Part shown: positions 22,703-37,731 of the stretch, piece by piece | Position numbering within the stretch: position 1 is the first letter of the stretch | How the letters are laid out: every line of letters begins with the position of its first letter | Assembly: GCA_018882835.1 (NCBI GenBank) | Contig: VERE01000015.1 | Coordinates: forward strand, 1-64,000 | Direction of reading: 5' to 3' | Source of the DNA: Limnohabitans sp. | GTDB taxonomy: Bacteria > Pseudomonadota > Gammaproteobacteria > Burkholderiales > Burkholderiaceae_C | Length of the DNA: 64,000 nucleotides | Program-made: the position numbers and the translations under genes | Notes under the pieces: generated by a model | What the model saw: only the letters and a program-made list of their open reading frames with translations | Database searches by the model: none | What the model was told of the DNA's origin: nothing

Positions 22703-24229
22703 TCACTCCAGGTTGAGTTCCTGGATTTTTCGGGTGATGGTGTTGCGGCCAATGCCCAGCTTTTGCGCGGCCTCGATGCGACGCCCGCGGGTGTTGGCCA
22801 GCGCGGTGAGAATCAGCTTGGCTTCAAAGCGGCGGCACAGTACGTCCCAGACATCGGGGCAACCCGAGACCAACAGGGCCATGGCTTCGGCCTCCAGGCC
22901 CAGCTCCCAATCAGCGCCGGGCACGTTCAAGGCCACGGGCGGCACGGCGGGGCTGGCGCTGCTGTAAGCCACCGCTTTGGTGTCGGCTTCCGTCGCACTG
23001 GGGCTCAGGCTGGCGCTGGTGTTACCGCCGTCTGGCTCCGAGTTGCTGGCGGGCAAGTGGGCCACAGGCGTATGCACTTCCGGCGGAAGGTCTTTGGGCT
23101 CAATCACTTGCGCGGGTGCCATCACGGTCAGCCAGTGGCAAATGTTTTCCAATTGGCGCACGTTGCCAGGGAAACCAAAGCCGAGCAACAAATTCTGCGC
23201 GGCATCGGAAATGCGCTTGGGGTCCACGCCCAGTTGTTGCGCGCTTTGCTGCAAAAAGTGGCGCGTCAGCATGGGCACGTCTTCGCGGCGCTCTCGCAAG
23301 GCAGGCAATCGCAAACGAATGACGTTCAAGCGGTGAAACAAGTCTTCGCGGAACGCACCCTCTTTGACGCGCTGCTCCAGGTCCTGGTGGGTTGCCGCAA
23401 TGACACGCACATTGGCCTTGATGGCACTGTGACCACCAACCCGGTAGAAATTGCCATCGCTCAACACCCGCAACAAACGGGTTTGCAAGTCAAACGGCAT
23501 GTCGCCAATTTCGTCCAGAAACAGGGTGCCGCCTTCGGCTTGCTCGAAGCGGCCGCGGCGCATGGTTTGCGCGCCGGTAAAGGCGCCGCGTTCGTGTCCA
23601 AACAGTTCGCTCTCCAGCAAATCCTTGGGGATGGCTGCGGTGTTGATCGCCACAAACGGGCCGGCCGCACGCTGCGAATGTTTGTGCAGCGCACGCGCCA
23701 CCAACTCTTTGCCGGTGCCCGACTCGCCGGTGATCATCACCGTGACGTTGCTTTGGCTGAGACGGCCGATTGCCCGAAACACATCTTGCATGGCCGGCGC
23801 CTGGCCCAGCATCTCGGGGGTGATGTCCACTTTGTCGCCGGCAAAGTCCTCGCGCTGGCTTTCGTCAACGGCGCGTCGAATCAATTCAATAGCCTTGGGC
23901 AGATCGAACGGTTTGGGCAGGTACTCAAAGGCCCCGCCCTGGAAAGCAGAGACAGCACTGTCCAAATCCGAAAAGGCCGTCATGATGATGACGGGCAGGC
24001 CGGGCAGGCGCTCTTTGACACGCGTCAGCAACTCCAGCCCCGAGCCACCGGGCATGCGGATGTCGCTGACCAGAACCTGTGGGCCATCTTCCTCGGTAGC
24101 GGCGTCCAGGGCTTGCAACACTTCGCGGGGGCTGGTGAAGCTGCGGGTCGGCAAATCCTCACGCAGCAGTGCCTTTTCAAGCACGAAGCGAATGGACTGG
24201 TCATCATCCACGATCCAGATCGGTTTCAT
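22703..24229 (-). CDS. ntrC: Nitrogen regulation response regulator NtrC
   Basis: 508 aa, also called GlnG. An N-terminal receiver (phospho-acceptor Asp56 in VSDIRMP) is followed by an AAA+ domain with Walker A GESGTGKE (168-175) and the GAFTGA loop (215-220) that contacts sigma54. After a low-complexity Ser/Pro/Ala linker (about 400-450), a Fis-type helix-turn-helix ends RIEAAQKLGIGRNTITRK. It activates sigma54 promoters when nitrogen is scarce. Likely targets within this window are glnA, urtA and ureA. Confidence 0.96.
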   Translation of the reverse strand: MKPIWIVDDDQSIRFVLEKALLREDLPTRSFTSPREVLQALDAATEEDGPQVLVSDIRMPGGSGLELLTRVKERLPGLPVIIMTAFSDLDSAVSAFQGGAFEYLPKPFDLPKAIELIRRAVDESQREDFAGDKVDITPEMLGQAPAMQDVFRAIGRLSQSNVTVMITGESGTGKELVARALHKHSQRAAGPFVAINTAAIPKDLLESELFGHERGAFTGAQTMRRGRFEQAEGGTLFLDEIGDMPFDLQTRLLRVLSDGNFYRVGGHSAIKANVRVIAATHQDLEQRVKEGAFREDLFHRLNVIRLRLPALRERREDVPMLTRHFLQQSAQQLGVDPKRISDAAQNLLLGFGFPGNVRQLENICHWLTVMAPAQVIEPKDLPPEVHTPVAHLPASNSEPDGGNTSASLSPSATEADTKAVAYSSASPAVPPVALNVPGADWELGLEAEAMALLVSGCPDVWDVLCRRFEAKLILTALANTRGRRIEAAQKLGIGRNTITRKIQELNLE

Positions 24230-24274: not shown

Positions 24275-25369
24275 TCAGGGCAAAGGAATCAGGATCTTGA
24301 AATCCGTCCGCCCCGGCACACTGTCACACTCAATCAGGCCCTGGTGTTGCTGCACAAAAGTTTGCGCCAAATTCAACCCCAAACCTGACCCGCCATCCCG
24401 GCCGGAAACCAGCGGGAAAAACAGTCGATCCTTGATGGCCTCGGGAATACCAGGACCGTTGTCCAAGACATGCAATTCCAATGCCAGGCGGTAGCGCTTT
24501 TTGCCAAAAGTGACTTGTCGGGCAATGCGTGTTTGTAAAACGATTTCGCCATCGCCTTCGGCAATGCGGTCCACCAGAGCTTGCGCGGCGTTGTGCGCAA
24601 TGTTCAGCACCGCTTGAATCAGTTGTTCCATGTCGCCGCGAAACTCGGGCAAAGACGCGTCGTAGTCTCGTATCACCTGCAAACCGCGCGGAAACTCGGC
24701 CAAGATCAGCGAGCGCACCCGCTCACAGACCTCGTGAATGTTGACTGTGCCGACCACATGGGGGCGGCGGTGCGGGGCCAACAGCCGATCCACCAGGGTT
24801 TGCAGCCGATCGGCCTCGCGGATGATCACCTGGGTGTACTCGATCAAGTCGCGCGACTCAATTTCCATTTGCAGCAACTGGGCCGCACCGCGGATGCCGC
24901 CCAAGGGATTCTTGATTTCATGGGCCAGATTGCGAATGAGCTCTTTGTTGGCCTGCGCCTGGTCAATGATGCGCGCTTCCCGGTCTTGCCGGGCTTGTTG
25001 CTCCAGGGGCAGCAATTCCACCAGCATTTGGCCCGGGCGGTCGGCAGGGGCCACAATGACGTGCACAGGAAAGGCTTCTTGCCCCGCGCGTTGCAGGTGA
25101 GCGTCGTAACGCAAGGCAGAAAACTGCTCTTTGCGCGCGCCTTGCAGCGCCCGCGACAAGGCCGCGCCGTCAACAAAATAATGTTGCAAAAAATCGCCTT
25201 CGATGGAACGGCGCGGCACCCCCAGCACATCTTCGGTGGCCGAGTTGGCAAACAGCACCAAACCATCCTCTCGGACCCACAAGGTCAGCGTGGCCAACAA
25301 ATCCAGCACGGCCCAGCGGCTGTCTGCTGCAGCGTCTGGCGAGGGGGAAGTCTTGGGTGATTTGGTCAT
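24275..25369 (-). CDS. ntrB: Nitrogen regulation sensor kinase NtrB
   Basis: 364 aa, also called GlnL. A PAS domain (about 20-110) is followed by a HisKA dimer domain with His150 in NLAHEIKNPLGG, where autophosphorylation occurs, and an HATPase domain (N box IAHNAAQA, DNGPGIP, GGSGLGLNLAQ). It phosphorylates or dephosphorylates NtrC under PII control. No membrane helix is present, as expected. ATG 25367-25369 overlaps the stop of the DUF4124 gene; upstream in-frame residues are unrelated. Confidence 0.95.
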   Translation of the reverse strand: MTKSPKTSPSPDAAADSRWAVLDLLATLTLWVREDGLVLFANSATEDVLGVPRRSIEGDFLQHYFVDGAALSRALQGARKEQFSALRYDAHLQRAGQEAFPVHVIVAPADRPGQMLVELLPLEQQARQDREARIIDQAQANKELIRNLAHEIKNPLGGIRGAAQLLQMEIESRDLIEYTQVIIREADRLQTLVDRLLAPHRRPHVVGTVNIHEVCERVRSLILAEFPRGLQVIRDYDASLPEFRGDMEQLIQAVLNIAHNAAQALVDRIAEGDGEIVLQTRIARQVTFGKKRYRLALELHVLDNGPGIPEAIKDRLFFPLVSGRDGGSGLGLNLAQTFVQQHQGLIECDSVPGRTDFKILIPLP

Positions 25370-25812
25370 GGGGCCATCTCTCTTTGAACGGCCGCCACAT
25401 CGGCCTCCACGCGCTCCAGCGGCAAGCGCAAACGTGTTTTTTCGGCTTCGTCGGCCTGGTTCCATTGCGCGCGCAAGCTACGTTGCTGCATCAACAGGCG
25501 GTCGAGTTCAGCCTGCAGGATCTGGCGCGAGCGCGCGTCGCGACGCTGTTGTTCTGCTGTGGGGACTTGAAGATCGGCTGGCTTGCGGACCCCTGCTGCC
25601 ACAGCCGCACCATTTTGCTGCACGCGCGTTCCCTCAATCACCGTGATGGTGCTGCTCTCCAAAAGCTGACAGTTTTGACCGGGGTCTGGCTGGTTGGTGT
25701 AGCCGTTGCCACAACGCCAGATGCCGGTTGACGGAGCCTGCGCGTGCGCTGGCCAGAGGGATGTGCAGGCCATCCCCCAAAAAAGGCATTGGATGAAAGT
25801 GGTGCGTGACAT
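25366..25812 (-). CDS. DUF4124-type secreted protein
   Basis: 148 aa with a signal peptide (about residues 1-25, ending AHAQA). It then has a short DUF4124-like region in which WRCGNGYTNQPDPGQNCQLL carries two Cys, and a C-terminal coiled stretch rich in Gln, Arg and Glu. DUF4124 proteins are periplasmic and uncharacterised. It lies between the glnA terminator and ntrB, overlapping ntrB by 4 bp, so it is translated with the ntrBC pair. The start is ATG 25810-25812; a TTG one codon earlier is less likely. Confidence 0.75.
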   Translation of the reverse strand: MSRTTFIQCLFWGMACTSLWPAHAQAPSTGIWRCGNGYTNQPDPGQNCQLLESSTITVIEGTRVQQNGAAVAAGVRKPADLQVPTAEQQRRDARSRQILQAELDRLLMQQRSLRAQWNQADEAEKTRLRLPLERVEADVAAVQREMAP

Positions 25813-25881: not shown

Positions 25882-27297
25882 TCACAGCGAGTAGTACATG
25901 TCGTACTCGATGGGATGCACGGCCTGACGGAAGCGGGTCACTTCGCCCATCTTCAATTCGATGTAGGCGTCGATCATGCTGTCGGTGAACACGCCACCCT
26001 TGGTCAGGAACGCGCGGTCCTTGTCCAAGTACTCCAGCGCCTGGTCCAGGCTGTGGCACACGGTGGGCACCAATGCGTCCTCTTCCGGGGGCAGGTGGTA
26101 CAGATCCTTGGTGGCGGCTTCGCCCGGGTGGATCTTGTTCTCGATACCGTCCAGGCCGGCCATCATCAGTGCCGCAAAACACAGGTAGGGGTTGGCCATG
26201 GGATCGGGGAAGCGCGCTTCGATGCGGCGGCCCTTGTCGCTGGCGACGTGGGGAATGCGGATCGAGGCAGAGCGGTTGCGGCTGGAGTAAGCCAGCTTCA
26301 CCGGGGCTTCAAAGCCGGGCACCAGACGCTTGTAGCTGTTGGTGGTGGGGTTGGTGATGGCGTTGAGGGCACGGGCGTGCTTGATGATGCCGCCGATGTA
26401 ATACAGGGCGGTGTCGCTCAAGCCAGCATAGCCGTTGCCTGCAAACAGGTTCTTGCCGTCTTTCCAGATCGACTGGTGAACGTGCATGCCAGAGCCGTTG
26501 TCGCCGACCAGGGGTTTGGGCATGAAGGTGGCGGTCTTGCCATAGGCATTGGCCACGTTCCACACCACGTACTTCAGCTTCTGTGTCCAGTCGGCGCGCT
26601 CCACCAGGGTAGAGAACTTGGTGCCGATTTCGTTCTGGCCAGCGCCTGCCACTTCGTGGTGGAACACTTCGACCGGGATGCCGATTTCTTCAAGGATGGA
26701 CACCATCTCGGCGCGCATGTCTTGCGTGCTGTCGACCGGGGGCACGGGGAAATAGCCGCCCTTGACGGTGGGACGGTGGCCCTTGTTGCCGCCTTCGATG
26801 ACCTTGCCGGTGTTCCAGGGCGCTTCGTAGTCGTCGATCTTGAAGAAGGCGCCAGACATTTCATTGCCCCAACGCACGTCGTCGAACAGGAAGAACTCGG
26901 GTTCCGGACCGAAGTAAGCGGTGTCGCCCAGGCCGGAGGCCTTCAGATAGGCTTCAGCGCGCTTGGCAATGGAGCGGGGATCGCGGTCATAAGCCTTGCC
27001 ATCACCCGGCTCCAGCACGTCGCAGGACAACACCAGGGTGGTTTCCTGGAAGAACGGATCGATGAAGGCGGTGCCGGCATCGGGCATGAGCAACATGTCC
27101 GAGGCTTCAATGCCTTTCCAGCCAGCAATGGAAGAACCATCAAAGGCATGACCTTCGCTGAATTTGTCTTCGCTGAACGCGGAAATCGGCACGCTCACGT
27201 GCTGTTCTTTGCCACGGGTGTCGGTGAAGCGGAAATCGACGAATTTGACTTCGTTTTCTTTCACAAGCTTCATCACGTCGGCGACGGTCTTGGCCAT
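25882..27297 (-). CDS. glnA: Glutamine synthetase type I GlnA
   Basis: 471-aa GSI-beta enzyme that assimilates ammonia into glutamine with ATP. Motifs include [17 protein letters not shown], the metal-binding [16 protein letters not shown] and NRSASIRIP. Near residue 400 the adenylylation site DLYHLPPEE has the Tyr modified by GlnE. ATG 27295-27297 is preceded by AGGAG; the frame stays open further upstream but the family N terminus [10 protein letters not shown] begins here. Upstream lie a sigma54 promoter and NtrC boxes. Confidence 0.97.
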
Positions 27298-27343
27298 CAG
27301 TTTCTCCTGCAGAGGGGTTGTTAAAAAAGGAATGTGATCACTG

Positions 27344-27359
27344 AGCAGGTTTTGTGCCA
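27344..27359 (-). promoter_or_regulatory. sigma54 promoter of glnA
   Basis: On the minus strand this reads TGGCACAAAACCTGCT. The -24 element is perfect (TGGCAC), GG and GC are exactly ten bases apart, and the -12 element CTGC differs from TTGC at one base. Transcription would start near 27333, giving a leader of about 36 bases before the glnA ATG. Confidence 0.85.
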
Positions 27360-27488
27360 CGCACATCGCCCGCACCAGAAAAACGCAGCCCTCTATTCTG
27401 CCCTGAGTTGGACAGCCCCTGGCCCTGGGGAACACTGGTTTTCCAAAAAAAACGGCCAAAAGGCACCGTTGAAGTGCGCTCCAAATAT

Positions 27489-27505
27489 AGCACTATTTTG
27501 GTGCA
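27489..27505 (-). promoter_or_regulatory. NtrC binding box upstream of glnA
   Basis: Plus strand reads AGCACTATTTTGGTGCA, against consensus TGCACYA-N3-TGGTGCA: 6/7 in the left half and 7/7 in the right. It differs at only two positions from the high-affinity site of the E. coli glnA enhancer (TGCACTATATTGGTGCA). The centre is about 164 bp upstream of the predicted start of transcription, a normal enhancer distance. Confidence 0.85.
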
Positions 27506-27508
27506 AAT

Positions 27509-28369
27509 TTAAGATCGCACCAATTCGGGGCCAAGTTTTGCACCAAATACATGCAGGCCGGCGAGCATGGCCGGGTAAGCCGCATTGACCTTGTCGGGCT
27601 CCCCCTTGACGCCCAGTTCAATGTGACGGCCATGTTCGGGATGGTCCACACTGGGCAGACTGAACACCTTGACGCCGGGATGTTGCGTCTCCAAGGTTTC
27701 CATCAAGGGCGTCAAGGCCGCTTCCATGGCGCCATATACGATGACTGACTTTTCCAACCAGGCAGCTTTCTGGAACCAATGGCCGTAGTGCGTGTCCAAC
27801 ACCCACTCGATCATGGGCCAGGCCATCACCGGAAAGCCAGGCACAAAATGCACCGCGCCGGTCTGCAGTGTGCGGCCCGGGGAAACACAGGTGAAGCCAG
27901 GAATCTTGTTGTAGGGGTTGGGAATGATCTGGGCGCTTTGCGGAAACACGCCCATGTTCAGGCGATGGATGTTGTCTTCTCGGTGGGGCTCATAGGGCAC
28001 GCCCTGCTCTTTCGCGACGTCTTGCATGCGCTCGCGAATCAGCAACTCGGCTTGCGGGTGCAGGACCAAAGCCTGGTCCAGGGCCTTGGCCGCACATTGG
28101 CGCGTATGGTCATCGGGGGTGGCGCCAATGCCGCCACAGGAGAATACGATGTCGCCGCTGTCAAACGCACGCTTCAGGGTGTGGGTGATGCGCTCAGGCG
28201 AGTCGCCCACGTAGTCTGCATAGGCCAGGCTGAGGCCTCGCGCGCCCAGCAGTTCGATGACCTTGGTCAGATGCTTGTCGGCGCGCTTGCCGGAGAGAAT
28301 TTCGTCGCCGACGATGATCACGCCAAAGTCGGGTCGGGAAGTGTCAGTGGGGGGGGTGCTTAGGTTCAT
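27509..28369 (-). CDS. CinA-type molybdopterin-binding domain protein
   Basis: 286 aa matching the N-terminal COG1058 half of competence/damage-inducible CinA: GVIIVGDEILSGKRADKH at the start, SCGGIGATPDDHTRQ and LNMGVFPQSAQIIPNPYNKIPGF. The C-terminal amidohydrolase domain of full CinA is absent, so nicotinamide-nucleotide deamidation is not expected. In related proteins the COG1058 domain can act as an ADP-ribose pyrophosphatase; whether this one does is unknown. Its first 26 bases overlap the end of the EI24 gene. Its last codons carry NtrC-like boxes for glnA. Confidence 0.85.
   Translation of the reverse strand: MNLSTPPTDTSRPDFGVIIVGDEILSGKRADKHLTKVIELLGARGLSLAYADYVGDSPERITHTLKRAFDSGDIVFSCGGIGATPDDHTRQCAAKALDQALVLHPQAELLIRERMQDVAKEQGVPYEPHREDNIHRLNMGVFPQSAQIIPNPYNKIPGFTCVSPGRTLQTGAVHFVPGFPVMAWPMIEWVLDTHYGHWFQKAAWLEKSVIVYGAMEAALTPLMETLETQHPGVKVFSLPSVDHPEHGRHIELGVKGEPDKVNAAYPAMLAGLHVFGAKLGPELVRS
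27516..27555 (-). promoter_or_regulatory. Two weaker NtrC-like boxes inside the end of the cinA-like gene
   Basis: CGCACCAATTCGGGGCC (27516-27532) matches 6/7 and 4/7 of the half-sites. TGCACCAAATACATGCA (27539-27555) matches 7/7 and 4/7. Together with the strong box at 27489 they could form a multi-site enhancer. Both overlap the last codons of the upstream coding region. Confidence 0.5.
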
Positions 28370-29252: not shown

Positions 29253-29945
29253 TTAAATGGCCACCATCTGGCGAATGCCTTTGTCTTGCATCTCGCTGCC
29301 GGGGCCGCGCGCAATCACTTCGCCGCGCTCCATCACCAGGTATTGATCGGCCAACTCTTCTGCAAAGTCGTAGTATTGCTCGCACAACACAATGGCCATG
29401 GTGCCGCGGTCGGCCAGCATGCGGATCACGCGGCCAATGTCTTTGATGATGCTGGGTTGAATGCCCTCGGTGGGCTCATCCAGTACCAGCAACTTGGGGC
29501 CCGCCGCCAAGGCGCGCGCGATGGCCAGCTGCTGTTGCTGACCGCCCGACAAGTCACCGCCACGGCGATGCAGCATTTGTTTCAGCACAGGAAAAAGTTC
29601 GAACAGTTCGGCCGGAATGGGCGTGCTGCCAGGCTTCGTGGCCAGACCCATGCGCAAATTTTCTTCGACCGTCAAGCGGGCAAAAATTTCACGTCCCTGG
29701 GGCACGTAGCCAATGCCTGCGCGGGCGCGCTCATAGGGCGTGGCGTTGTGCAAGGGCTGGCCTTCCAGCTCAATCTGCCCTTGCCGGATGGGCACCAGGC
29801 CCATCAAGGATTTGAGCAAGGTGGTTTTGCCCACGCCGTTGCGCCCCAGCAGCACGGTGACCTGCCCCAGCTCGGCGCTCAGACTGACGTCGCGCAAGAT
29901 GTGCGAGCCGCCATAGTACTGTTGAATGTTGGAAACTTTCAGCAT
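29253..29945 (-). CDS. urtE: Urea ABC transporter ATPase UrtE
   Basis: 230-aa ATPase of the branched-chain amino acid (LivF-like) class. Walker A is GRNGVGKTT, the signature LSGGQQQQLAIARAL and Walker B LLVLDEPTEGIQPS; the ending MQDKGIRQMVAI is typical of UrtE. It is the last gene of urtABCDE and follows urtD by 30 bases. Start ATG 29943-29945 begins MLKVSNIQQYYGGSHIL, the family N terminus. Confidence 0.95.
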   Translation of the reverse strand: MLKVSNIQQYYGGSHILRDVSLSAELGQVTVLLGRNGVGKTTLLKSLMGLVPIRQGQIELEGQPLHNATPYERARAGIGYVPQGREIFARLTVEENLRMGLATKPGSTPIPAELFELFPVLKQMLHRRGGDLSGGQQQQLAIARALAAGPKLLVLDEPTEGIQPSIIKDIGRVIRMLADRGTMAIVLCEQYYDFAEELADQYLVMERGEVIARGPGSEMQDKGIRQMVAI

Positions 29946-33619: not shown

Positions 33620-34891
33620 TTACTTCTTGGCCGGCTCGTCAGGCTTCTTGTCGTTGCCTTCGATGAACGGGCTCCAGGGCTTGGCCTTGACCGGGCCATC
33701 CGTCTTCCACACCACGTTGAATTGGCCATCGGCCTTCACTTCGCCGATGAACACCGACTTGTGCAGGTGATGGTTCTTTTCATCCATCTTGGAGGTGATG
33801 CCGCTCGGGGCCTTGAAGGTCTGGCCGGCCATGGCTGCAATCACTTTGTCGACATCGGTGGTCTTGGCTTTTTCGACGGCCTGCTTCCACATGTTGATGC
33901 CGATGTAGGTGGCTTCCATCGGATCGTTGGTCAAAGGCTTGTCCTTGTGGCCGGCGATGTTCTTGGCCTTGGCATAAGCGGCCCACTTCTTGGTGAACTC
34001 GTCGTTGGCGGGGTTCTTGATGCTCATGAAGTAGTTCCAAGCGGCCAGGTGACCCACCAAAGGCTTGGTGTCCACGCCACGCAGTTCTTCCTCACCCACC
34101 GAGAAGGCCACCACTGGCACGTCCTTGGCCTTCAAGCCGGCGTTGCCCAGCTCTTTATAGAACGGCACATTGGAGTCGCCGTTGATGGTGGAGACCACAG
34201 CGGTCTTGCCACCGGCAGAGAATTTCTTGATGTCGGCCACGATGGTCTGGTAATCGCTGTGGCCAAAAGGGGTGTACTTCTCATCAATGTCCGACTCTTT
34301 CACGCCTTTGCTCTTGAGGTAAGCGCGCAGAATCTTGTTGGTGGTGCGGGGATACACATAGTCGGTCCCCAACAGAACCCAGCGCTTGGCGCTGCCACCG
34401 TCTTTGCTCATCAGGTAATCCACAGCAGGAATGGCCTGCTGGTTGGGAGCTGCCCCGGTGTAGAACACGTTCTTGGACAGCTCTTCACCTTCGTATTGCA
34501 CCGGGTAGAACAACAAGCCGTTGAGCTCTTCCACCACGGGCAGCACAGACTTGCGGCTGACCGAGGTCCAGCAACCAAAAATCACAGACACTTTGTCTTG
34601 GGTCAGCAGCTGTTTGGTCTTTTCAGCAAACAGCGGCCAGTTGGATGCAGGGTCCACCACCACGGGCTCAAGCTTTTTGCCAAGCACACCGCCCTTGGCG
34701 TTGATTTCATCAATGGCCATCAATACCGTGTCTTTCAACACAGTTTCAGAGATGGCCATGGTACCCGACAAGCTGTGCAGCACACCGACCTTGATGGTCT
34801 CTTGTGCAAAAACTTGCGAGGGCAGCAGACTGCCGACCGAGAGAGCAGCGGCAGCTGCCAGTGCTGTGAGGTGACCGCGACGATTAAGCAT
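33620..34891 (-). CDS. urtA: Urea ABC transporter substrate-binding protein UrtA
   Basis: 423-aa periplasmic binding protein of the FmdD/AmiC type. Signal peptide about residues 1-29, with mature protein from QETIKVGVLHSLSGTMAISE, the UrtA hallmark. FGCWTSVSRKSVLPVVEE, LFYPVQYEG and NWPLFAEK also match UrtA. ATG 34889-34891 gives the signal peptide MLNRRGHLTALAAAAA; the upstream in-frame ATG lacks support. It lies downstream of a sigma54 promoter shared in a divergent region with ureA. Confidence 0.96.
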   Translation of the reverse strand: MLNRRGHLTALAAAAALSVGSLLPSQVFAQETIKVGVLHSLSGTMAISETVLKDTVLMAIDEINAKGGVLGKKLEPVVVDPASNWPLFAEKTKQLLTQDKVSVIFGCWTSVSRKSVLPVVEELNGLLFYPVQYEGEELSKNVFYTGAAPNQQAIPAVDYLMSKDGGSAKRWVLLGTDYVYPRTTNKILRAYLKSKGVKESDIDEKYTPFGHSDYQTIVADIKKFSAGGKTAVVSTINGDSNVPFYKELGNAGLKAKDVPVVAFSVGEEELRGVDTKPLVGHLAAWNYFMSIKNPANDEFTKKWAAYAKAKNIAGHKDKPLTNDPMEATYIGINMWKQAVEKAKTTDVDKVIAAMAGQTFKAPSGITSKMDEKNHHLHKSVFIGEVKADGQFNVVWKTDGPVKAKPWSPFIEGNDKKPDEPAKK

Positions 34892-34967
34892 GTGAAAACT
34901 CCGTGAGATGAAAACAATCAAGGTTCGCGATCAGCAAGCAGGCTTGCCAACCGTGCACACCTCATTA

Positions 34968-34983
34968 GGCAAGCGCCATGCCA
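34968..34983 (-). promoter_or_regulatory. sigma54 promoter of urtABCDE
   Basis: Minus strand reads TGGCATGGCGCTTGCC: -24 TGGCA with one change in the sixth base, exact GG-N10-GC spacing and perfect TTGC at -12. Transcription would start near 34957, leaving a 66-base leader before urtA. Confidence 0.75.
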
Positions 34984-35053
34984 ACCCCTGTTTGGCGCCA
35001 CCCCCTCAAAAAACAGGCTCATGCACCGCGAAAGACCGACTGTTTCGCTCGGC

Positions 35054-35070
35054 CGCACCAATTTGGGACA
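35054..35070. promoter_or_regulatory. NtrC-like box shared by urtA and ureA promoters
   Basis: CGCACCAATTTGGGACA matches TGCACCA-N3-TGGTGCA at 6/7 and 5/7. It lies between two divergent sigma54 promoters, roughly 70 bp from the urtA -24 element and 60 bp from the ureA -24 element. A further half-site, CGCACCA, lies at 35087-35093. Confidence 0.6.
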
Positions 35071-35129
35071 GCCGGATCCCTGCAAGCGCACCAAAAAAAT
35101 GCCTGTCCTTATTTCGCAGCACAGCTCAA

Positions 35130-35145
35130 AGGCATGCAAGTTGCA
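35130..35145 (+). promoter_or_regulatory. sigma54 promoter of the urease operon
   Basis: AGGCATGCAAGTTGCA has GGCA at -24, exact GG-N10-GC spacing and a perfect TTGCA at -12; the first and sixth bases differ from TGGCAC. Predicted transcription start is about 35156, 25 bases before the ureA ATG. It lies past an in-frame ATG at 35151, which supports the later start. Confidence 0.72.
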
Positions 35146-35180
35146 TCACAATGAAGCATGCTTTCACTTTGAGCACAGAC

Positions 35181-35483
35181 ATGGAACTCACGCCTCGCGA
35201 AAAAGACAAACTGCTGATCTTCACCGCCGCCTTGCTGGCGGAACGACGACAAGCCCGTGGCTTGAAATTGAACTACCCGGAAGCCGTGGCCCTGATCAGC
35301 GCCGCGGTCATGGAAGGTGCGCGCGACGGCAAGACCGTGGCGCAATTGATGAGTGAGGGACGCAGCATCCTCACGCGCGCCGATGTGATGGACGGCGTGG
35401 CCGAAATGATTCCCGATATCCAGGTGGAGGCCACTTTCCCGGATGGCACCAAGCTGGTCACCGTGCATCAGCCCATTGTTTGA
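35181..35483 (+). CDS. ureA: Urease gamma subunit UreA
   Basis: 100 aa, the standard length. Begins [18 protein letters not shown] and contains [21 protein letters not shown] in two parts, then the [22 protein letters not shown] segment. It forms the (UreABC)3 shell and has no catalytic metal. The start at 35181 is chosen by family N terminus and by the predicted sigma54 transcript start; ATG 35151 would add ten unrelated residues. No ureD precedes it. Confidence 0.97.
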
Positions 35484-35500: not shown

Positions 35501-35668
35501 ATGAAATTCATTTTGTGTCTGGCCGCCTTGCTGGCAAGTCCTTTCCTACATGCCCACGAGGGCCACGGCCTGACGGGCAGCGCCCATTGGCATGCCACCG
35601 ACAGTTGGGGCTTCCTGGTGCTGGGGCTGGTGGCTGTGCTGGCCTGGTGGTTCCATTCGCGCAAATAA
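35501..35668 (+). CDS. Small His-rich membrane peptide inside the urease operon
   Basis: 55 aa from ATG 35501, with an AGAGGA ribosome site. Residues 1-17 look like a signal sequence (KFILCLAALLASPFLHA), residues 18-34 are HEGHGLTGSAHWHATDS with five His, and residues 35-50 form one membrane helix, then a basic tail HSRK. It lies 17 bases after ureA and 15 before ureB, so it is co-transcribed. No function is known to me. The His-rich face would be outside the inner membrane, which suggests nickel or other metal handling, but this is inference. It is too short for HupE/UreJ, whose start it faintly resembles. Confidence 0.75.
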   Translation: MKFILCLAALLASPFLHAHEGHGLTGSAHWHATDSWGFLVLGLVAVLAWWFHSRK

Positions 35669-35683
35669 AACCGGAGACATCGC

Positions 35684-35989
35684 ATGATTCCTGGCGAACT
35701 TTTCACCGATGAAGGTGTGCATGCGCTCAACCCTGGGCGCAGAACTTTGACCTTGGTTGTCCAAAATGCAGGCGACCGCCCGATTCAGGTCGGGTCGCAT
35801 TACCACTTCGCCGAAACCAACGGCTCGCTCAGCTTTGACCGCGATGCCGCGCGCGGCATGCGTCTGAACATCGCCTCCGGCACCGCTGTGCGATTCGAGC
35901 CGGGGCAACAACGCACCGTCGAACTGGTGGACTACGCCGGTGATCGTGCGGTTTACGGCTTTCGCGGCCTGGTGCAAGGAGAGCTTTGA
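35684..35989 (+). CDS. ureB: Urease beta subunit UreB
   Basis: 101 aa, standard length, a structural subunit of urease. [11 protein letters not shown] at the start and [11 protein letters not shown] are conserved, as are [16 protein letters not shown] and GFRGLVQG. The final A of its TGA stop is the first base of the ureC ATG. Confidence 0.96.
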
Positions 35990-37731
35990 TGGCAACGATC
36001 GGACGCCGCGCCTATGCGGAGATGTATGGCCCCACCGTGGGCGATCGCTTGCGCCTTGCCGATACCGACCTGGTGCTGGAAGTCGAACAAGACTTCACCC
36101 TGCGCGCCGGTGGTTATGGGGAAGAAGTGAAGTTTGGCGGCGGCAAAACCATTCGCGATGGCATGGCGCAATCGCAGCGCACGCGCGACGGCAAGGGCTC
36201 CGGCCCGCAAGCGGGCGGTGCGGTTGACACCGTGCTGACCAATGCCCTGATCCTGGACCACTGGGGCATTGTGAAAGCCGACATCGGCTTGAAAAATGGA
36301 CGCATCGTGGCCATTGGCAAAGCGGGCAACCCAGACACCCAGCCTCAGGTGGACATTGTCATCGGACCAGGCACCGAAGTGATCAGCTGCGAAGGCAACA
36401 TCGTCACAGCCGGTGGGATTGACACGCACATCCACTTCATTGCCCCTCAACAAATTGAGGAAGCCCTGGCCAGTGGTGTGACCACCATGATTGGCGGCGG
36501 CACCGGCCCGGCCACAGGAACCTTCGCCACCACCTGCACGCCGGGGGCTTGGAACATGGAGCGCATGCTGCAAGCAGCTGACGCATTCCCCATGAACCTG
36601 GGCTTTCTGGGCAAAGGCAACGCCGCCCTGCCCGATGCCTTGCACGAGCAAATTCAAGCCGGCGCCATTGGCCTGAAGCTGCACGAAGACTGGGGGACCA
36701 CGCCCGCCGCCATCGACAACTGTTTGTCAGTCGCAGAAGAAACCGACACCCAGGTCGCGATTCACACCGACACCTTGAACGAATCGGGGTTTGTGGAAGA
36801 CACGGTGGCGGCCTTCAAGGGGCGTACCATCCACACCTTTCACACCGAGGGCGCGGGCGGTGGCCACGCCCCCGACATCTTGAAAGTGGTGGGCGAGGCC
36901 AATGTGCTGCCCTCCTCGACCAACCCGACGCGGCCCTACACTATCAACACGCTGGACGAGCATGTGGACATGCTGATGGTGTGCCACCACCTCGACCCGG
37001 CAATTGCAGAAGATTTGGCCTTTGCCGAAAGCCGCATCCGACGCGAGACCATCGCGGCAGAGGACATCCTGCACGACCTGGGCGCCATCAGCATGTTCAG
37101 CTCCGACAGCCAGGCCATGGGTCGGGTCGGCGAGGTGATTTTGCGTTGCTGGCAAACCGCACACAAGATGAAGCAGCAACGCGGCAAATTGCCGGGCGAC
37201 AGCGATCGCCATGACAACGCGCGGATCAAGCGCTACATTGCCAAGCTGTGCATCAACCCCGCCATTGCCCACGGCATCAGCCATGAGGTGGGCAGCGTCG
37301 AAGTGGGCAAGTGGGCCGACCTGGTCATTTGGAAGCCCGCGTTTTTCGGCGTCAAGCCGGCGGTGATCCTCAAAGGTGGCTTCATTGCCATGGCCGCCAT
37401 GGGCGACCCGAATGCTTCCATTCCCACGCCGCAGCCAGTTCATTACCGGCCGATGTTTGGCGCTTTTGGCGGTGCGCTGGCACGCGGCTCGCTGACCTTT
37501 GTGTCGCAAGCGGGGCTGAGCGCCGACATTGGCAAGCGCTTTGGCTTGAACAAGACCCTCAGTGCCGTGAAAAACATACGCGGCATTGGCAAGCGCCACA
37601 TGATTCACAACGACTTGGCGCCGCACATGGAAGTGGACGCGCAGACCTATGCCGTGCGTGCCGATGGCCAACTGCTGACCTGCGAGCCTGCGGTAAGCTT
37701 GCCCATGACGCAACGCTATTTTTTGTTCTGA
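35989..37731 (+). CDS. ureC: Urease alpha (catalytic) subunit UreC
   Basis: 580-aa nickel amidohydrolase that splits urea to ammonia and carbamate. All key residues are visible: His147 and His149 in THIHF, the carbamylated Lys230 in GLKLHED, His259 and His285 as further nickel ligands, Cys332-His333 of the mobile flap in MVCHHLD and Asp373 in [13 protein letters not shown]. The start overlaps the ureB stop by one base and its stop overlaps the ureE start by one base. Expected to be fully active if the nickel chaperones, including UreD, are present in the cell. Confidence 0.98.

Follow-up and report, generated by a model that had tools for sequence, protein, structure and literature searches.

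Limnohabitans live in fresh water, and the locus described here raises the question of how a member of this genus would time the uptake of urea and its splitting. In the window, by which we mean the whole 64,000-nucleotide stretch of DNA analyzed, urtA and ureA lie back to back and are read away from a common intergenic gap (Table 1). The former is the first gene of urtABCDE, which extends to the end of urtE at 29253 and whose UrtB-E products all exceed their NCBIfam cut-offs; the latter opens the urease genes. Does this gap carry a shared nitrogen switch, what would operate it, and does it accompany the divergent gene order in related genomes?

Table 1. Features of the urea locus and its proposed regulator in the window
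Feature	Position	Strand	Basis
urtA-ureA intergenic gap	34892-35180 (289 bp)		urtA start codon 34891-34889 (-), ureA ATG 35181 (+)
urtA, urea ABC transporter substrate-binding protein	33620-34891	-	NCBIfam TIGR03407, 601 bits (cut-off 493)
ureA, urease gamma subunit	35181-35483	+	NF009712/PRK13241, 175.8 bits (cut-off 123), aligned from residue 1
ureB, urease beta subunit	35684-35989	+	exceeds NCBIfam cut-off
ureC, urease alpha subunit	35989-37731	+	exceeds NCBIfam cut-off
Sigma54 -24/-12 promoter of urtA, TGGCATGGCGCTTGCC	34968-34983	-	GG-N10-GC and TTGC; score 15.5
Sigma54 -24/-12 promoter of ureA, AGGCATGCAAGTTGCA	35130-35145	+	GG-N10-GC and TTGC; score 14.3
Predicted urtA transcript start	34957	-	12 nt past the -12 C; 66-nt leader
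Predicted ureA transcript start	35156	+	12 nt past the -12 C; 25-nt leader
NtrC box 1, CGCACCAATTTGGGACA	35054-35070	+	matrix score 11.4
NtrC box 2, CGCACCAAAAAAATGCC	35087-35103	+	matrix score 11.4; 33 bp from box 1
NtrC-box-like stretch over ureA -12/+1, TGCATCACAATGAAGCA	35142-35158	+	matrix score 11.9
ntrC, proposed activator	22703-24229	-	TIGR01818, 665.8 bits (cut-off 558.6); GAFTGA motif in translation
glnA	25882-27297	-	TIGR00653, 665 bits (cut-off 429); frame 25882-27459 scanned

Two predicted sigma54 promoters facing away from each other

A preliminary description of this DNA had placed a sigma54 promoter on each side of the gap, and both stand: each has the exact GG-N10-GC spacing and an intact TTGC, and under an approximate matrix, with weights that were set rather than fitted, the urtA site ranks third and the ureA site sixth among the roughly 128,000 positions of the window. 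The arrangement is rare on a larger scale as well, since a pattern for divergent sigma54 pairs 125-155 bp apart occurs at only two places in the 3.28-Mb genome, this gap and one on contig C26. The best match of the window (15.8) lies at 24486 on the minus strand, inside an ntrB-like frame and upstream of ntrC. The same description had let the predicted ureA transcript start decide the start codon, a choice that we retain: an in-frame ATG at 35152 precedes the predicted +1, and the ATG at 35181 begins the conserved start of UreA. Between ureA and ureB (35501-35668), a reading frame of about 55 aa has, by eye, a signal-like start, histidines and one hydrophobic stretch.

A pair of putative NtrC boxes between the promoters

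NtrC boxes were scored with a palindromic matrix. Of 35 glnA matches in the genus, 30 loci were taken, two proved too short, and the upstream regions of the other 28 contributed their best box each. A seed consensus guided the choice of these boxes, some of which are weak and one of which is the window's own glnA site. With this matrix only six of 63,984 window positions score at least 11.39, and three of these, 35054, 35087 and 35142, fall in the urtA-ureA gap. The others are at 27489 in the glnA promoter region, at 27539 inside the end of the gene neighboring glnA, and at 25606 in the interval between glnA and the ntrB-like frame. The single NtrC-like box originally proposed as the shared enhancer, at 35054, is thus real, and what had been missed is its partner: the likely enhancer is a pair, with box 2 lying 33 bp away. 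This spacing, about three helical turns, is that of paired NtrC sites, and among divergent loci outside the near-leaderless class A defined below the commonest spacings of GCACC or GCACT words are 32, 29, 33 and 31 bp. Each box has one half-site that matches well and one that matches poorly. A third GCACC half-site at 35022, TGCACCGCGAAAGACCG, was first taken as a further box and was dropped when it scored -3.5 with the glnA-derived matrix.

Box 1 lies about 70 bp from the urtA sigma54 site and about 60 bp from that of ureA; its center is at -105 from the predicted urtA +1 and at -94 from that of ureA. The corresponding values for box 2 are -138 and -61, the latter close for looping. The two boxes could mean that two NtrC-dependent promoters merely stand back to back, each with a box of its own, an arrangement that would not exclude NtrC/sigma54 control and that finds some encouragement in class A, where extra GCACCA repeats near the ureA promoter look like a separate ureA set. 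The geometry of the window argues otherwise, because both boxes lie between the promoters and upstream of each, and box 1 is about equidistant from the two predicted starts; we regard separate boxes as unlikely, while granting them a real share of the probability. Joint switching by one NtrC complex follows from this placement upstream of both promoters, and one and the same complex serving both sides is the likeliest form of control, although we are less sure of it than of NtrC/sigma54 control itself.

The third high-scoring stretch, likewise absent from the preliminary description, covers the -12/+1 region of ureA, and similar stretches occur in L033, L034, L047, L145 and L146. It could be a self-limiting site that restrains ureA when NtrC~P is high, or it could simply come with TTGCA.

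The proposed activator and the internal controls

The proposed activator is encoded about 11 kb from the gap in the same window, where ntrC adjoins the ntrB-like frame (24275-25465) and glnA; its AAA+ sigma54-activator domain matches PF00158 with 244.6 bits. The RpoN DNA-binding domain is matched once in the genome (PF04552, 214.5 bits). PF00158 is matched six times, strongly only by NtrC and by a 473-aa protein encoded on contig C105. The latter could be the true activator, being the only other strong match (232 bits) and reaching no NCBIfam cut-off among the 25 families matched. We consider this very improbable, because the boxes in the gap score with a matrix derived from glnA promoters and share the GCACC half-site, and because ntrC is so near.

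The region upstream of glnA served as an internal control and has both elements, an NtrC box at 27489-27505 and a sigma54 site from 27359 on the minus strand (15.5). The two amtB regions, taken without regard to operon limits, lend loose support as additional controls: on one contig a sigma54 site scoring 16.3 and an NtrC box scoring 14.6 lie about 1.4 kb before the amtB match, and on the other, boxes of 11.2 and 10.8 and a weak sigma54 match (11.5) lie near amtB. The box between glnA and the ntrB-like frame (25606-25622) scores 15.6 and, with the sigma54 match at 24486, makes self-control of ntrBC possible. The sole ureD match of the genome lies outside the urease cluster (L196, 4665-8238, on contig C92 of genome G000). 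It ends a series of genes that includes an ABC transporter akin to the sulfonate/nitrate/taurine type, a xanthine permease adjoining, and the series is preceded by a box-like stretch (13.3) without a good sigma54 site. As a further test of the switch, ureD is therefore neutral.

Conservation where urtA and ureA diverge

A search for UrtA found matches in 113 of 150 family genomes and in 60 of 84 genus genomes. Distant paralogues and some matches cut by contig ends were left out, and the set analyzed has 153 loci with urtA, among them the window's own; the family search supplied 98 and the genus search 57, with two in common. In 69 of them ureA is divergent from urtA, across gaps of 107-498 bp. 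A sigma54 site was counted if it scored at least 11.5 and left -2 to 100 nt between the predicted start and the start codon. Such a site precedes urtA in 68 of the 69 divergent loci (1.4 in dinucleotide shuffles) and ureA in 57 (1.0 in shuffles), and 56 loci have both (0.0 in shuffles), counts that come from related loci, two rows being identical in the tree columns, and are not independent events. On the wrong strand, scans gave two loci for the urtA side and one for the ureA side, the latter count being restricted to gaps longer than 260 bp.

The boxes recur together with the promoters. An NtrC box scoring at least 5 lies between the promoters in 49 of the 56 loci that have both, with two or more boxes in 35; the remaining seven have none at this threshold. 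Across the 69 divergent gaps the best box score per gap has a median of 12.5, whereas letter shuffles give 1.5 and the upstream regions of 82 non-divergent loci give -1.0; GCACCA occurs 147 times in the divergent gaps against 5.4 in letter shuffles. In an alignment of the 44 loci from the genus whose gaps do not exceed 350 bp, two GCACC blocks between the promoters, those of boxes 1 and 2, are kept in at least 90% of the loci, although the aligner itself partly creates such blocks. The preliminary description had proposed conservation as a check, and on this point it is borne out in dozens of species, far above the shuffled and wrong-strand controls. Motifs this short and boxes this imperfect might in principle arise by chance; in view of the shuffled, wrong-strand and non-divergent controls and the conservation result, we give that explanation next to no weight.

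At least one promoter falls short of the criteria in 13 of the 69 loci. The lone miss on the urtA side is L032, where a good site (16.3) lies out of range through the urtA start codon chosen. Twelve loci have no ureA-side site that satisfies the threshold and distance used. Seven of these group together in a single clade within the genus (99/98 support); their gaps measure 410-498 bp and have no recognizable ureA sigma54 site. One might therefore argue that only urtA has a true sigma54/NtrC promoter, the ureA match being weak or vestigial and ureA using another promoter: the urtA site is the stronger and nearly universal, the ureA site is missing from a whole clade, and in the genus the base before its GG is often A, G or C, not T. 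Such a one-sided switch is nevertheless improbable, given that the ureA site recurs within 100 nt of ureA in so many more loci than in shuffles and that a scan of the window's gap for sigma70-type promoters found none.

Predicted ureA leaders

Leader lengths were compared over the 69 divergent loci with a sigma54 pattern looser than that of the threshold scan. In 21 loci, all of the window's genus, the predicted ureA leader is only 1-4 nt, with 12-15 nt between the -12 C of the sigma54 site and the ureA ATG (class A: L004, L035-L037, L039, L040, L042-L048, L050, L051, L055, L057, L060, L145-L147). A further 35 loci, the window among them, have leaders of 12-55 nt (class B), as do the named isolates Limnohabitans T6-5, Rim11 and L. 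lacus, at 28-35 nt. The remaining 13 comprise L038, nine without the pattern and three in which it lies further away. L038 had been in class A under the loose pattern (22 rows) and was moved out for its poor site (8.1).

If the predicted promoter acts, class A ureA mRNA would be nearly leaderless. The region upstream of ureA pairs poorly with the 16S tail, with means of -1.0 kcal/mol in the 22 rows that include L038 and -1.6 kcal/mol in class B; upstream of urtA the means are -5.9 and -5.7 kcal/mol, a strong Shine-Dalgarno pairing. Strong pairing is absent at ureA in 18 of the 21 class A loci, while L035, L036 and L043 reach -5.4 or lower. Class A includes the single-contig genomes G080 and G176, and a sigma70-type promoter scan of one class A gap found none. 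On the tree the class A label needs three changes, and a clade of 24 rows (91/89) consists of all 21 class A loci with the window, L012 and L038; a single origin is possible. Of two published studies, one reports 171 leaderless starts (PMC3616915), and the other 320 starts that lie no more than 10 nt from the start codon and have an extended -10 motif (PMC4842269). Among the matches listed in our literature search, no title or abstract opening was on leaderless mRNA from sigma54 promoters. The near-leaderless ureA of these relatives would be a natural case in which to study translation of a regulated leaderless mRNA.

Loci in which ureA is not divergent

In 84 loci ureA is not adjacent and divergent, and one of these has too little upstream sequence. 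A sigma54 site scoring at least 12 precedes urtA in 13 of the other 83, some of which are cut by contig ends. A second set of named loci, 79 of 80 examined, repeats the contrast: a urtA-side sigma54 site is present in 19 of 19 divergent loci, four of which repeat loci of the 153-locus set, versus 7 of 60 non-divergent ones, and an NtrC box scoring at least 5 in 14 of 19 versus 9 of 60. Boxes alone are not proof, because non-divergent Variovorax paradoxus 110B has a box of 9.6 without a sigma54 site. In five Acidovorax/Paracidovorax loci, that of A. citrulli not among them, ureA is not divergent; their best sigma54 scores are 1.3-10.1, and no NtrC score exceeds 3.4. An A. citrulli ntrC mutant is reported still to use urea as sole nitrogen source (PMC10052978), a phenotype that fits the absence of sites in these five loci.

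Where the genes are separated, urtA can have other neighbors. Regulators were sought within 1.5 kb before urtA and named LuxR- or ANTAR-type by reading of the sequences, a few matches being short. A LuxR-type response-regulator match precedes urtA in 16 loci, all non-divergent and in the same direction (L007, L009, L015, L019, L026, L028, L087, L092, L096, L099, L100, L124, L133, L135, L149 and L155; the matches in L124 and L135 are weak or short). An ANTAR-type, AmiR-like match is found in four non-divergent members of the genus that keep the urtA sigma54 site (L056, L102, L112 and L144, the last cut by a contig end). Neither type was found in that interval in the 69 divergent loci. Nine non-divergent genomes were examined for ureC: six have it about 7-21 kb upstream of urtA on the opposite strand, and three have it elsewhere. 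The urease alpha match of genome G003 (contig C1, 4306232-4306596) comes in two overlapping pieces, which suggests a frameshift or sequencing error.

A model for joint control

We hold it highly likely that NtrC and sigma54 control both the urtA and ureA promoters via the boxes between them. What the analysis shows is that the elements are present, that they rank high against chance and are conserved, that the genome encodes NtrC and RpoN, and that the gap resembles glnA upstream regions. NtrC binding, looping to both sides, the transcript starts and co-induction are what we infer. During nitrogen shortage, NtrB would phosphorylate NtrC; NtrC~P dimers would bind boxes 1 and 2 and assemble into the ATPase form, which through DNA looping would open the closed complexes of sigma54-RNA polymerase at urtA and at ureA. 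Urea import by urtABCDE and hydrolysis by ureABC and the genes after it would then rise together, and fall together on the return of ammonium. Judging from the DNA, a shortage of nitrogen very probably turns on import and breakdown of urea at the same time.

A broader reading joins the two outer observations. In 21 species of the genus, a nitrogen-induced urease mRNA would be made nearly leaderless from a sigma54 promoter, and the family would toggle between adjacent divergent genes with NtrC/sigma54 control and separated genes mostly without it, some with a LuxR-type gene beside urtA, so that nitrogen control would be tied to gene order. We offer this tentatively, as a proposal that falls a little short of an even chance of being right as a whole. 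The proposed switch itself gives a bacterial group with cultured freshwater members, Limnohabitans, a testable rule for the timing of urea uptake and splitting, and the gene order suggests why urea use should depend on NtrC in only part of the family.

Comparison with known systems

The switch is of a known type, and related species show unexpected variants of it. One close counterpart is the enterobacterial glnA enhancer, whose two NtrC sites, near -108 and -140, are separated by about 32 bp and which the boxes at -105 and -138 from urtA resemble; that enhancer does not lie between two divergent sigma54 promoters, whereas the boxes of the window do. Control of urea genes by NtrC has also been described. 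In comparative genomics of NtrC regulons, ureABC and urea ABC transporter genes are listed as targets in several orders (PMC5343134); the passage concerned names Alteromonadales, Oceanospirillales, Rhizobiales and Rhodobacterales, and the family of the window is not among them. In Burkholderia cenocepacia H111, like the window's organism a beta-proteobacterium, passages of the report describe an ntrC mutant in which urease and urea ABC transporter genes are down and urea is not used, with sigma54 co-regulation (PMC5491218), a result that speaks for the control proposed here. In those passages the genes form one run of locus tags, and no divergent pair with a central enhancer is described. Herbaspirillum seropedicae likewise has a sigma54 promoter upstream of urtA, with urt and ure thought to be under Ntr control (PMC3093359); in that cluster urt precedes ure and the source names one promoter, whereas the window has two divergent units with a promoter each. 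No title or abstract opening among the matches listed from the open-licence literature names a divergent urtA/ureA arrangement. NtrC/sigma54 control of urea genes is known already, and the divergent arrangement in this family adds a further member to that kind of system.
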